Below are positions 6,237 to 58,549 of a stretch of DNA of 64,000 nt, one piece after another. The notes beneath the pieces are model-generated. The model was not told the origin of the DNA. It searched no databases and saw only the letters and a program-made list of their open reading frames with translations. Numbering within the stretch: position 1 is the stretch's first letter; each line of letters starts with the position of its first letter. The DNA is from Aphelidium insulamus (Eukaryota > Aphelidiomycota > Aphelidea > Aphelidiaceae), in contig JAZDSV010000002.1 in assembly GCA_036784855.1 (NCBI GenBank), positions 542,501-606,500 on the forward strand, read 5' to 3'. Position numbers and translations under genes: made by a program.

Positions 6237-8837
6237 TCAGCTGGTGCCACTGACGCTCAACTTCTTCAAGTGGTCCATAAACACCTGCAGGTTGACGTCG
6301 TCTGTGAATATAGGCTGTGCATCTCCAGGCTGGCCATAGTAACCCATGTTGGCATGTGTGGTGCTCGGGTTGAGTTTGCTGAGCAGAAATCGCGCTTGAC
6401 TGCCTCCCTGATCGCACTCAATGTATCGCGGAATGGGAAACCGATCTTGAAGCAGTTCCTGGGCCTCTATGCGCGGCGCCTCCAGCAAATCCTTAAACCC
6501 GGCAAAATCAGGTTTCTCATGGTAGCCGTCTTTGCGCCACTGCGCCACAGTCGATCCATGCCAGATAAGAATGTGAAAGTAAGTGTCCAGAAGAAGGATA
6601 ACATCGGGTTTGGCAGACACGGAGTCCAGCAGTACTGGACCCGGCGGTCCATTAAATCCAAATGACGTCAAAGTCGGCTGTATCATGATCAGTGAATTCA
6701 TCACGTCCTCTCGATTGATCACAGTCCTGTGATAATTTAATTACTGAAGTAAAGGCATCAAACACCCACTCACCGATAGAATGCAGTCTCATCGGGACTG
6801 TTGTTGAATACCTGCAAAAATTGACTGCGTCTCAGATGGAACATGAACTGCGGATAGATGCTGAAGCTGGGACTCAGATTGAAACTAGTCGGATCGTCCT
6901 TGCGGTACTCTCCAAACTTTTGGCACAGTCGAATCAGCATGCGGTCAAGCCAGCGCAACACATCTGGCCCGTCATCAATCTCGGCCTTGAAGATCACTAT
7001 CCGTGCCATCAGAACTGCCGCGGCCTCTTGGTCGAACGATAGGGGCAGTTCGGGCGCACTTGCGTCGACCCAGTTGCGAGCAATTGTTGTCACGCGAAGT
7101 CGCATCTGCCCGCCAGAGTGCTGATAGTGCGTCACGAATTGAATCACCCCGCGATTCCCAGCCGGCATAGGCTGAGTAGACTGCATCAAACATTAATATT
7201 GGCATCACTAAGGGTAAACAAATTACAAACTCGCCTGGTTGACCACCTCAAAGTAGAGGGCTACCGTGGTGTGTGGCGTCACACTTCCGAAGCGCCATGC
7301 ACTAGTACCGCCAATGCCGATCTCTGTTTCCGCCACGGATTGCGACTTTTTGCCCGCGGATATTCCAGGGCCAATCATGCCGCAGACCTTTAGTTCACGC
7401 GTGGTCATCACCTCGAGTGTGGCGTTGAATCCCATGAGCAGAAAATCTTGGGAATCCTTGGTGAAGATTCGCTGGAACGATTTCTTGAACACTGTAGTCT
7501 GGAACGAGTCGGATAGAATCATGAATCCCGTCGTCTGGTTCACCATTGACTTCATTTCCAGCAGTCCGACCTGGTCCAAGCAGCCGGCAAATATATCAAT
7601 CGAGTGGCCGCATGCCGATGCGCGCGCAGCAATCGATTCGTAAAACTGGTTTATCAGCTCAGTTATTGATTATCAGGCAGCGCGGTACCTTGGACGCCTT
7701 CTTGAAATGCTTTGCATGATCCTTGTCCAGATCGTGGTGTGAGCGCAACATCTCCTTCAGCTCTGTGCCCACAATTGCACCTGGACCCACGGAACAGGGG
7801 CCACCAGAAAAAAGCATAATGCGGGCACCAGTGCCAGGGAAAGCGTGCTAAATAATAAATCATCATGGGAAATGCAGATATCATATATATTACCTCCAGC
7901 AAACTGACTGCGACTTGGAGTGCGACTCCGGTGCAGCGCTGTGCACGACATTCAGGCTTGACCAGCCACGGATCGCATTGCAGCTGCTCCAAAATGGAAG
8001 TCAGAGCAAACTCGCACTGACTGGCGGGCAGGATGAAACGGTGTGCACCAACTGGCCGTGGCGGCTGGTTGGGCATCTGGGGCTGCAGCTGTGTGGTGGA
8101 TGCGATGCCGAGCATTTGCTGGATCTGCTGCGGCGTGTACTCTTTAGTGCCGCGAAACACATACGACTTTGGACACTCCATGTATCCAAGTTCATGGAGT
8201 TGGGCCTACAGCCTGCATTAAACGACAAGTATACATATCTTGCTTGCGCGCACCATTGTGCCATAGGTAATCAGGCCGACGAGTGCATGCGGCGGCAGCA
8301 GGCTTAGCCCCACAATCAGTTCATCGCGCAGTGCCTGCAGGTCATCCACGTCCAGACACGTGTCCACCACAAAGATGAACACCGGCGGCATCAGCGGTCC
8401 CCTGGCGGGCAGCGTGTACTCAATGGTGGTGTACTGCGGCATGAGCTCCGCAGGCACATTTCCATTGGCGATGTCGTTGTAGTGCGGCGGGAATTGATTG
8501 CGCTGCGTGCAAAACGGACACACCCACACACGGGCCCGGGTGTCGATTTGGCTGCAGACAGGCACTCAATTAGCAGAGTATATATACATAGAGAGAGTAG
8601 GTGGTACACACTATATATATATAGTGCCTACCAGTAAGGGTTGAGGACGCCGCGGCAGGGCTGCTTGCACACCACGGGCTCGTAGAACACGGGAGGCAGG
8701 TCCGGACGGTCTTTAAGCAGGGTGTACATGCAGCCAATGGGCACCACCATCCGTGTGGCCTCCAGCCGCGATGAGACGAACGAGTTCCACGACAGGCGCA
8801 CGCCGTCAATATCCTCAATCTCTTCAAACGTCGCCAT
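6237..8837 (-). CDS. SEC23: Sec23, COPII coat GTPase-activating subunit
   Basis: Seven exons (complement): 8837-8632, 8551-8254, 8205-7894, 7847-7689, 7645-7235, 7180-6774 and 6726-6237. They sum exactly to 761 codons (760 residues), close to other Sec23 proteins. It starts with [18 protein letters not shown]. The zinc-finger cysteines follow (CRGVLNPYC and [14 protein letters not shown]), then the vWA-like trunk ([10 protein letters not shown] and ITYGTM), the beta-sandwich, the helical part ([23 protein letters not shown]) and the gelsolin-like end ([11 protein letters not shown]). Sec23 pairs with Sec24 and acts as the GAP for Sar1 on ER exit vesicles. The fifth intron (7234-7181) has no usable GT donor; the frame requires a GC donor, CAG|GCGAGT. 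The other introns are GT-AG. Confidence 0.96.
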
Positions 8838-9439
8838 CGGGTGCAGCGCAGATGGGCAGAGTAGTGGTGAGTGTCGCTGTAGCACTCAAATGTGGTACAG
8901 CCAAATGAATGCAAGAGGCGCAGATAGGGGCTGCGTGCGGATGTAGAGGCAGGCAAAGACGAACAGGCGAAGCACCAGGAGTAATTAGCAAGCAGCGCTG
9001 TATGCACAGTGGAAACAGCGCCACTGATTTGTCTTATTATCGACGAGCTTATTTACTTGCACCAAATAATTGTACACATGCCTGGAAAATCCTCTTCCTT
9101 GGTTGTTCTCATTTGGATATAGCTGCCAAGCAGGTAGCATAAGTACTGTACTTTTCTCGTGCTAGATTATAAGAGTAAATTTATCATGCTTTAATAGAGC
9201 ATTCTTCACAATATGTTTCATAACTTATCCTTATTTTACCATGCTGTACATAGCAAGATCAATTGAACGAACCTGGAAAAACCGCTTGAAAACCATTTTA
9301 AAAAGATTTACGTGCTAGTAGAAACGGATGCAATCATAGTAGAACGGATACCGGCCGAAAACCATTAGTGGCTGCAGACCTAACCCAATGATTGCATCTT
9401 ATCAGCGCTATTCGTTAGTGCACTGCTGCATAAAGGCGC
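8838..9439. other. Intergenic, no gene seen
   Basis: About 600 bases upstream of Sec23. The part next to Sec23 should hold its promoter. The rest is AT-rich with no frame that matches anything I know. Short antisense frames here are not supported. Confidence 0.5.
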
Positions 9440-56576: not shown

Positions 56577-57031
56577 CTTGTGCGTGTTAATGGAAGGAGA
56601 TCAGCCGTGTGATCAGGAGCCGTTAACGCCACATTATCCTTATAATATAAAGATGTTATATTTACATCTTGTTGGCAGTAATCGGCATAGAAGGCTTTGC
56701 CATTTGTTATAACTTACGCAATATATTACCTGACGGACTTCAATACTACTTTACAGATTACAGACTTGGAATGCTACAAGCATGTGTGTGCATTTAATTG
56801 GTTACTCCATCCACATATGTGCTTCTGGGCTATGAGGACGTTCATATAATACATGTCATTCACAGGTATGTATTGTATTACTGCATTACATATACACATA
56901 CATGCTTATATGGATGTGCGTGTTTATGTGTTGAAGCTGCCCGTTAGAAGTGAAATGTAGATAGAAAGAACACAGAGAGAGCAGAGAAGCACTCTTGCAC
57001 ACACAGCAGACATCTACACACAGACAACCAA
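56577..57031. other. Divergent intergenic region, no gene seen
   Basis: About 450 AT-rich bases between a minus-strand and a plus-strand gene; it should hold both promoters. No frame supported. Confidence 0.5.
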
Positions 57032-58549
57032 ATGTCCTTGCCGAGGCGCCGCCCGTCGCACAGTCTGCCGCCCAACGCACACACATGGACCCCCAACGCC
57101 GGCACCACCGCCGAGATCATGTCGAGTCTGGCAGCGCGGTCCTCGCCGGGCCCGGTGCCTCCGCCTGTGGCAGTAGTAGCGCCAACAGCCGCTACCACCG
57201 CCGACACCGCTACCCACATGACACTCACACTGCGCCGCGCACCCACCGCCAGCACGCCGTTCGCCCGGCCCACCGCCGTCAAACCCGACGTCCACACCGG
57301 GGTAGTATTGCTGCTGGTCGCGGCTGCCGGGCTGGGCGTGTTCTTTGCCGGGCTGGACATTATTCTGCAGACATCCGCGGCGCTGCAGTCGGTGCCCGTG
57401 GAGCAGTCTCGCCCGTGGGTGGCCACTTTCACCATTGGCCCAAAGACATTTGTCGTTGGTGGCAGCTACATTCTGCTGGCACGTGCCTTGTAGATATATA
57501 TACACATATATACAGATTTATACACTGTCTGTCTGCTAATTGAGTGCGCAGATCGTGGTGAGCATGTCGCTGATGGTCAACAGGGCGGTGACGGTGCGGA
57601 GTGCCGTGACAGACATTCCAAAGACGCGTTTGCCATTCCGCAAAGGTGACTTGCCGTACACGGTGTACAAGACCATTCAGCGCGGGTTGATGCGGGTGCG
57701 CCTGCTCAACTTGGAGCCGACCATGGACGATATCGGGCAGCCGGGTTGGGTGTACAATGCACAGTCACTGGCACTGCCGCCCGTGTCTGCGGTGCATGTG
57801 CAGTCTCCGGTGCAGCAGGCGCCCGCTGTCCGGCTCCTCTCTCCCGCGCATCGTTTGTCGTCACCCTCGCGGCCCGGTTCCGTGCAGCAGCCGCGATTAA
57901 AGGTTACACGCAACAAGAAGCGCACATCCATGATATCAACTGGCACCACTGGCAACAGCATGTCACACCTGCAGCAGCACAGCGCACACAGCCAGAATGA
58001 TATAAGCGCCCTGGTCGGTGTGGGCAGCGGCGCGAGATCTGCGGTCGTGGTGACATCGCCCACGGCCACCAGCCCGTCTTCCAGATCAGTCTCGGTGCCG
58101 CCACAATCTCCGCAGAGAGCCATTGGTGCCACATCTTCAACCACAAAGAAGCCGGTCCACTTGAGGCGGGCAGTGCTGCGCGGCTGGGCCGCTTTCAGCG
58201 CCAACCTCCAGCAAATCTATGCAGCGTCCCAAGAGACCACAGCAGATTCGACGCTGTCTCACAGTTTGCAACTGCTTGCCGAACGTCCGCCTTGGATGTC
58301 GGTGATGGAGTATGTGGACGCGGTGGCCGAGCAGTTTGGTATCGACGGCGCCCTAGTTGCATACTTTGGCGACGTCTACACAAAGGCGCGATTCTCTGCC
58401 GGCGAGATCAGCGAGCAGGAGTTCCAGACGTTTACAAAGTGTCTGGCCGCCATGACCAAGCGGTCAGTACTAATTATATTTATATACATTGTTGCCAACA
58501 TAATATTATACAATGCTGCAGGATAAGCGGCCACGTTCGAGAGGGTTAA
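57032..58549 (+). CDS. Dlt1-like two-span membrane protein
   Basis: Exons are 57032-57478, 57552-58462 and 58522-58549, exactly 462 codons (461 residues). About 85 disordered residues precede span 1 (GVVLLLVAAAGLGVFFAGLD). A short loop with WVATFTIGPKTF follows, then span 2 (VGGSYILLIVVSMSLMVNRA). After it comes VTDIPKTRLPFRKGDLPYTV and a helical cytosolic tail. Two spans followed by an IPK-x-x-x-P-x-x-x-GD block is the layout of fungal Dlt1 (defect at low temperature) proteins, whose role is poorly known. I rely on memory of that family, so this is tentative. The first intron needs a GC donor (CTG|GCACGT at 57479), and it joins the two halves of span 2. The stop is only 30 bases from the stop of the convergent GT15 gene. 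Confidence 0.55.

Follow-up and report, generated by a model that had tools for sequence, protein, structure and literature searches.

Predicted GC-AG introns at the locus

The window analysed here, a stretch of 64,000 nucleotides (nt) inside contig C86 of a 17.95 Mb genome assembled in 169 contigs, carries genes for Sec23, a universal stress protein, a TMEM237-like protein, a PAS-domain histidine kinase, a J-domain protein, LIS1, XMAP215 and a Dlt1-like protein. Although a GT donor is among the strictest rules of eukaryotic genes, each of these genes has at least one predicted or possible intron that begins with GC and ends with AG (Table 1). A first-pass annotation had listed ten such introns, and all ten GC donors are present in the sequence. 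Its list missed one more, at 54797-54841 in XMAP215, which is in frame and free of stop codons and hence undetectable by frame. The gene at 19561-20250, labelled "USP", is a universal stress protein according to Pfam (Usp), not a ubiquitin protease.

Table 1. Predicted introns of the window with a GC donor (the slash marks the start of the intron).
Gene	Call	Donor	Position	Strand	Length (nt)	Evidence
Sec23	GC-AG intron	CAG/GCGAGT	7181..7234	-	54	Called with non-GT donors allowed; homolog alignment
Universal stress protein	GC-AG intron 1	GAG/GCATGT	19746..19853	-	108	Pfam Usp
Universal stress protein	GC-AG intron 2	ATG/GCAAGT	19561..19619	-	59	Pfam Usp; yields IVMGNHGKSG block
TMEM237-like	Possible GC-AG intron	GCG/GCAAGT	20885..20984	+		Ambiguous: in-frame GT 6 nt downstream explains equally well
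PAS-domain histidine kinase	GC-AG intron	AAA/GCAAGA	31470..31515	-	46	Pfam PAS_3, PAS_9
J-domain (DNAJC17-like)	GC-AG intron	GAG/GCACGT	40498..40543	-	46	Coding potential and motif only
LIS1/PAC1	GC-AG intron	AAG/GCAGGG	47461..47525	+	65	PDB chain match
XMAP215/CKAP5	GC-AG intron	AAG/GCACGG	49215..49272	+	58	Pfam XMAP215_CLASP_TOG
XMAP215	Probable GC-AG intron	AAG/GCAAGC	51141..51188	+	48	Called; ambiguous: in-frame GT 6 nt upstream
XMAP215	GC-AG intron	CAG/GCAAGT	54797..54841	+	45	In frame, stop-free; homolog comparison
Dlt1-like	GC-AG intron	CTG/GCACGT	57479..57551	+	73	Strong flanking exons (17 and 57 nats); otherwise donor motif only

The first-pass annotation held that most of these introns could be removed in frame only with a GC donor. 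When the genes were re-parsed with GT donors alone, an alternative was found in most cases, with a shifted splice site and with residues lost, added or changed. Frame alone therefore does not force a GC donor, and the choice is decided by homology and donor motif.

GC stands out among all donor dinucleotides

We let all 16 donor dinucleotides compete in a simple, self-trained, codon-based gene finder, the final training of which used trusted introns only. Each of the 15 non-GT kinds was given the same prior of 0.003; the acceptor AG was fixed by the model, so that the donor alone was left free. The sample comprised 314 kb (the window plus the preceding 200 kb, and 50 kb drawn from five further contigs), and an intron was counted when its removal was needed for an open frame and both flanking exons were coding (>3 nats). 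The needed introns were 286 with GT, 22 with GC and 7 in total with the remaining 14 donor kinds, an average of 0.5 for each of these kinds versus 22 for GC at equal prior. Raised priors of 0.01, 0.03 and 0.0625 gave 23, 24 and 28 GC introns, accompanied by 9, 18 and 61 decoys. When the donor matrix of the non-GT kinds was permuted in 12 runs, GC received only 1-5 calls (mean 3.1), and the count for the other kinds rose to 14-24. The excess of GC over the other dinucleotides exceeds chance.

Other procedures were tried and set aside. The first trainings merged genes and created spurious in-frame introns, among them one with a GT donor in conserved Sec23 sequence (7308-7261), and were replaced. 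When self-training admitted GC at a prior of 4%, the GC share drifted, reaching 71 introns out of 716 and 23 out of 265; lacking competing decoys, these figures were not used as a rate. Expectation-maximization on forward-backward posteriors, with all 16 dinucleotides free, turned into a runaway: GC, CC and CT grew most and others grew too, which indicates model misfit.

The GC excess extends beyond the window

Inside the window, 74 needed introns had GT donors and 8 had GC donors (8/82); outside it the counts were 212 and 14 (14/226, or 6.2%; Wilson interval 3.7-10.1%). Over the whole sample, GC accounted for 22 of the 308 GT and GC introns (7.1%). The mean for fungi is 1.009% over 130 genomes (PMC7072748), from which the share outside the window departs with p ~1e-7. 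Window and outside did not differ significantly (Fisher p 0.32); the window is therefore not special, and the GC excess reaches beyond it.

Conserved proteins support individual GC junctions

A run with a GC prior of 0.01, and 0.003 for the other non-GT kinds, yielded 24 trusted GC calls. We compared 14 of them, picked for conserved-looking proteins, in 13 pairs of protein models, each pair consisting of the GC model and the best GT-only parse; LIS1 made a 14th pair. The Pfam domain at the junction scored at least 4 bits better with the GC intron in 10 of the 14 pairs. With both of its GC introns removed, the universal stress protein reached 94.7 bits against Usp, versus 44.9 for the GT-only form. 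For the histidine kinase the GC and GT-only scores were 63.4 and 56.9 (PAS_3) and 46.9 and 40.0 (PAS_9), and for the XMAP215 intron at 49215 they were 113.4 and 84.5 (XMAP215_CLASP_TOG). The same held for RNA_pol_Rpb1_1 (167.1 versus 136.2), Peptidase_C97 (155.2 versus 122.6), the CAF1B/HIR1 propeller (98.7 versus 88.3), Epimerase (68.9 versus 59.6), Translin (120.4 versus 111.3), UCH (87.6 versus 80.4) and Cation_ATPase_N (50.5 versus 46.0; the E1-E2_ATPase domain past this junction scored 65.0 versus 66.4).

Pfam was uninformative for DnaJ, ASF1 and LIS1, the junctions of which lie outside domains or at their edge; the DnaJ domain of the DNAJC17-like protein, for example, scored 69.0 with the GC intron at 40543 and 69.1 in the GT-only form. 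A trusted call at sample position 186630 of C86 had a GC model only, and no Pfam family matched it. For LIS1, the gene finder itself chose a GT donor at 47473, 12 nt downstream and in frame, which inserts four residues; against PDB chain 8pqw_B this form scored 160.4 bits and the GC form 170.5. In an alignment of Sec23, the block in the GC product had the length found in 35 of 41 homologs, and the GT form was four residues shorter. Removal of the 54797 intron improved the match to 29 of 30 XMAP215 homologs (the top 30 of 120 listed) by a mean of 17.8 bits; PDB and Pfam searches with the C-terminal piece of XMAP215 gave nothing useful.

Fourteen GC introns are thus supported by homology, seven in the window (7234, 19853, 19619, 31515, 47461, 49215 and 54797) and seven outside. 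The first six of these window sites belong to the ten of the first-pass list; of the other four, 40543 and 57479 draw on coding potential and motif only, and 20885 and 51141 are ambiguous.

Rate estimates and the possibility of an artefact

Several observations weigh against a high rate of genuine GC-AG introns. All introns were predicted from genome sequence alone. Only 6 GC calls were left when the donor matrix of the non-GT kinds was made flat. With exon thresholds of 5 and 8 nats, the share outside the window was 10/191 (5.2%) and 5/118 (4.2%), the counts inside being 6/69 and 5/42; an earlier, less clean training gave, outside the window at 5 nats, between 1.4% (3/213, prior 0.003) and 7.6% (12/158, prior 0.0625). 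The GC rate thus depends on model settings. Half of the trusted calls (12/24) are without informative homology, ten being unpaired and two (DnaJ and ASF1) uninformative, and at the Sec23 junction the Sec23_BS domain favored a GT donor 12 nt upstream by 2.5 bits (90.1 versus 87.6 for GC). Sensitivity was gauged by spike-ins, made by turning the donor T of each of the 286 GT introns into C in separate trials: 148 of the 286 artificial GC donors (52%) were recovered, and of the 138 that were lost, 84 gave way to a GT site nearby. With missed sites corrected for, the rate becomes 11.3-12.7% for the whole sample (up to 13% as rounded) and 9.6-11.1% for the part beyond the window. These are upper estimates, because the correction assumes GT-like weakness and the real GC donors surpass the spike-ins in strength.

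We estimate that roughly 4-12% of introns start with GC, several times the fungal average. The first-pass figure of about 9% falls within this range; it is right in kind, and its size is either about right or slightly too large.

Wrong gene models or a systematic T-to-C sequencing error might account for most of the GC calls. An apparent rate of this size has collapsed before: in Heterorhabditis bacteriophora, 8.87% of introns were GC-AG in the annotation and 0.79% after re-annotation (PMC5906903). The runaway of expectation-maximization, which swelled CC, CT and further donors along with GC, and the variation with settings would also fit an artefact. Here, in contrast to H. bacteriophora, single junctions in conserved proteins have homology support, and GC was the sole raised kind, a pattern that did not survive permutation of the donor matrix. 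If the assembly is the published one of Aphelidium insulamus, it was also Illumina-polished at ~95-fold coverage (PMC10608142). A mainly artefactual origin seems to us very unlikely.

Donor context and the spliceosomal RNAs

The GC donors carry an otherwise U2-type consensus (e.g., CAG/GCAAGT, CAG/GCACGT) with an AG acceptor. Matched to the complement of U1, the 22 real GC donors scored 4.91/7 and the 148 recovered spike-ins 3.84/7 (p 4e-6); G occupied +5 in 95% of GC donors and A occupied +3 in 86%, compared with 80% and 68% of spike-ins. This stronger match than that of detection-matched spike-in donors is a trait shared with U2-type GC-AG introns. The U12-type donor is RTATCCTT, and it occurs in none of the listed GC donors; U12-type small nuclear RNAs (snRNAs) were not searched. 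In GC-AG introns elsewhere, the GC donor is offset by a stronger consensus at the remaining positions, and the stronger context seen here points to ordinary compensation and argues against indifference to the +2 base. G+C was 51.9% in the 314 kb sample and 62.5% at third codon positions, and with only 39.5% in introns, intron base content does not explain a C at +2.

The first-pass annotation had proposed a changed U1 as one possibility. Rfam searches, in which 41 of 280 candidates were scored, found four U1 genes at 42-44 bits, short of the gathering score of 69.5 but with E ≤1.8e-8. All four begin ATACTTACCTGG, a normal 5' end, and a 25-base U1 scan of the genome with up to 3 mismatches recovered the same four and no variant. 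The sole U6 match has a normal ACAGAGA box. The proposed U1 change is not seen in the four genes found.

A further U1 could nonetheless serve the GC donors if it placed a G opposite +2. Five exact copies of the 12-mer ATACTTGCCTGG occur in the genome (in contigs C89, C93, C97, C115 and C116 of G000), compared with none for the control. However, the 25-base scan found no U1-like sequence with that G at 3 or fewer mismatches, and a perfect GC donor, CCAG/GCAAGTAT, has this same 12-mer as its complement and is the most likely source of the copies. We consider such a variant U1 extremely improbable.

Among the proteins, domains of U1C, LUC7, METTL16 (including the NPPF motif) and SNRNP27 are present. 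The leading GT donors in the sample were GTATGT, GTGAGT and GTACGT, and the GT introns showed no preference for A at +4 (A 0.27, C 0.33, G 0.13, T 0.27; n=285). In yeasts, loss of METTL16 and SNRNP27K accompanies U at +4 (PMC10581693). Loss of either as the cause of the odd donors was rejected, both domains having been found in the genome. In the SNRNP27 gene (L037, G000:C86:430725-430865) the key methionine is kept, and the tail after the conserved RQYMN reads TKKHLLNRPPPP. The human tail reads RKGGFNRPLDF; the difference could include an overlooked splice site.

These observations bear on whether the spliceosome has been relaxed at +2, through a protein (U1C, LUC7, Prp8 or SNRNP27K) or a modification, to the point that GC nearly equals GT. 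The GC rate of several times the fungal mean speaks for it. The absence of an A preference at +4, despite the presence of METTL16 and SNRNP27, suggests that donor reading may differ at some step, and the SNRNP27 tail past the conserved YMN looks altered relative to the human sequence. But GC donors are clearly stronger at their other positions than matched GT donors, so that +2 still matters, and no rise is seen in the remaining 14 donor kinds (7/315). Near equivalence of GC and GT is, in our judgment, unlikely. In a more specific form, donor reading in aphelids or in this lineage would be relaxed at +2 and indifferent at +4 owing to a change in SNRNP27K, U1C or Prp8, with U1 and U6 normal and at least 10% of introns GC-AG; we regard this as a rather doubtful possibility.

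We think it likely that, in this probable aphelid, a GC donor opens ~4-12% of the short U2-type introns and that these are handled by a major spliceosome of the ordinary type. Its U1, the 5' end of which is normal, would tolerate the mismatch at +2 by virtue of better pairing elsewhere, most clearly at -2, -1, +3, +4 and +5, after which the normal U6 would take over. GC sites would probably accumulate because a T-to-C change at +2 is only weakly harmful where the remaining donor is strong. The sequence shows the GC donors, their excess and stronger context, and the normal U1 and U6; actual splicing at the GC sites and this evolutionary cause are what we infer.

Comparison with other genomes

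The introns described here resemble the U2-type GC-AG introns of fungi in having a GC donor and an AG acceptor, and are about four to twelve times commoner. GC-AG rates well over 1% are also reported for Aureococcus (39.6%), Micromonas pusilla (22.2%) and Chlorella (7.7%), but the G+C of these genomes is ~66-70% (Aureococcus 69.5%, M. pusilla 65.9%, Chlorella ranked between), well above the 51.9% found here (PMC3033335). Oikopleura and Eurytemora, which are rich in GA-AG introns (PMC7072748), likewise show a species-specific departure from GT, but with a different dinucleotide. Among the papers that our searches of the open-licence literature listed, no title or abstract opening described an elevated GC-AG rate in aphelids, chytrids, Rozella, early-diverging fungi or protists, and the word "intron" was not found in the available part of the A. 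insulamus genome paper (PMC10608142). The genome is a notable outlier for a known kind of intron. If the reading is correct, this compact genome, which branches close to the fungal root and departs from GT in several percent of its introns with normal U1 and U6, would provide a natural test of discrimination at +2, and gene finders restricted to GT would mis-predict a noticeable share of genes in a group central to fungal origins.

Source organism and genetic code

The source organism is probably an aphelid, a flagellated, alga-infecting relative of the fungi, judging from one gene and one named aphelid. In a midpoint-rooted maximum-likelihood tree of Sec23, built from the query and 41 of 120 listed hits (2676 in all; best hits only; 42 rows), the query fell into one clade with Amoeboaphelidium and three other sequences at 100/100 support; by path length, Rhizophagus was nearly as near (0.70 versus 0.69). 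At 20239-28441 the window holds putative genes for TMEM237-like, SAM-kinesin and IFT80-like WD40 proteins; they look ciliary or microtubular and fit a flagellated organism.

Amoeboaphelidium reads UAR as glutamine (PMC5304391). Here, in contrast, the standard code fits, although the gene models presuppose it: TAA, TAG and TGA end 33, 39 and 40 of 112 models, and TAA is the stop codon of the universal stress protein gene.

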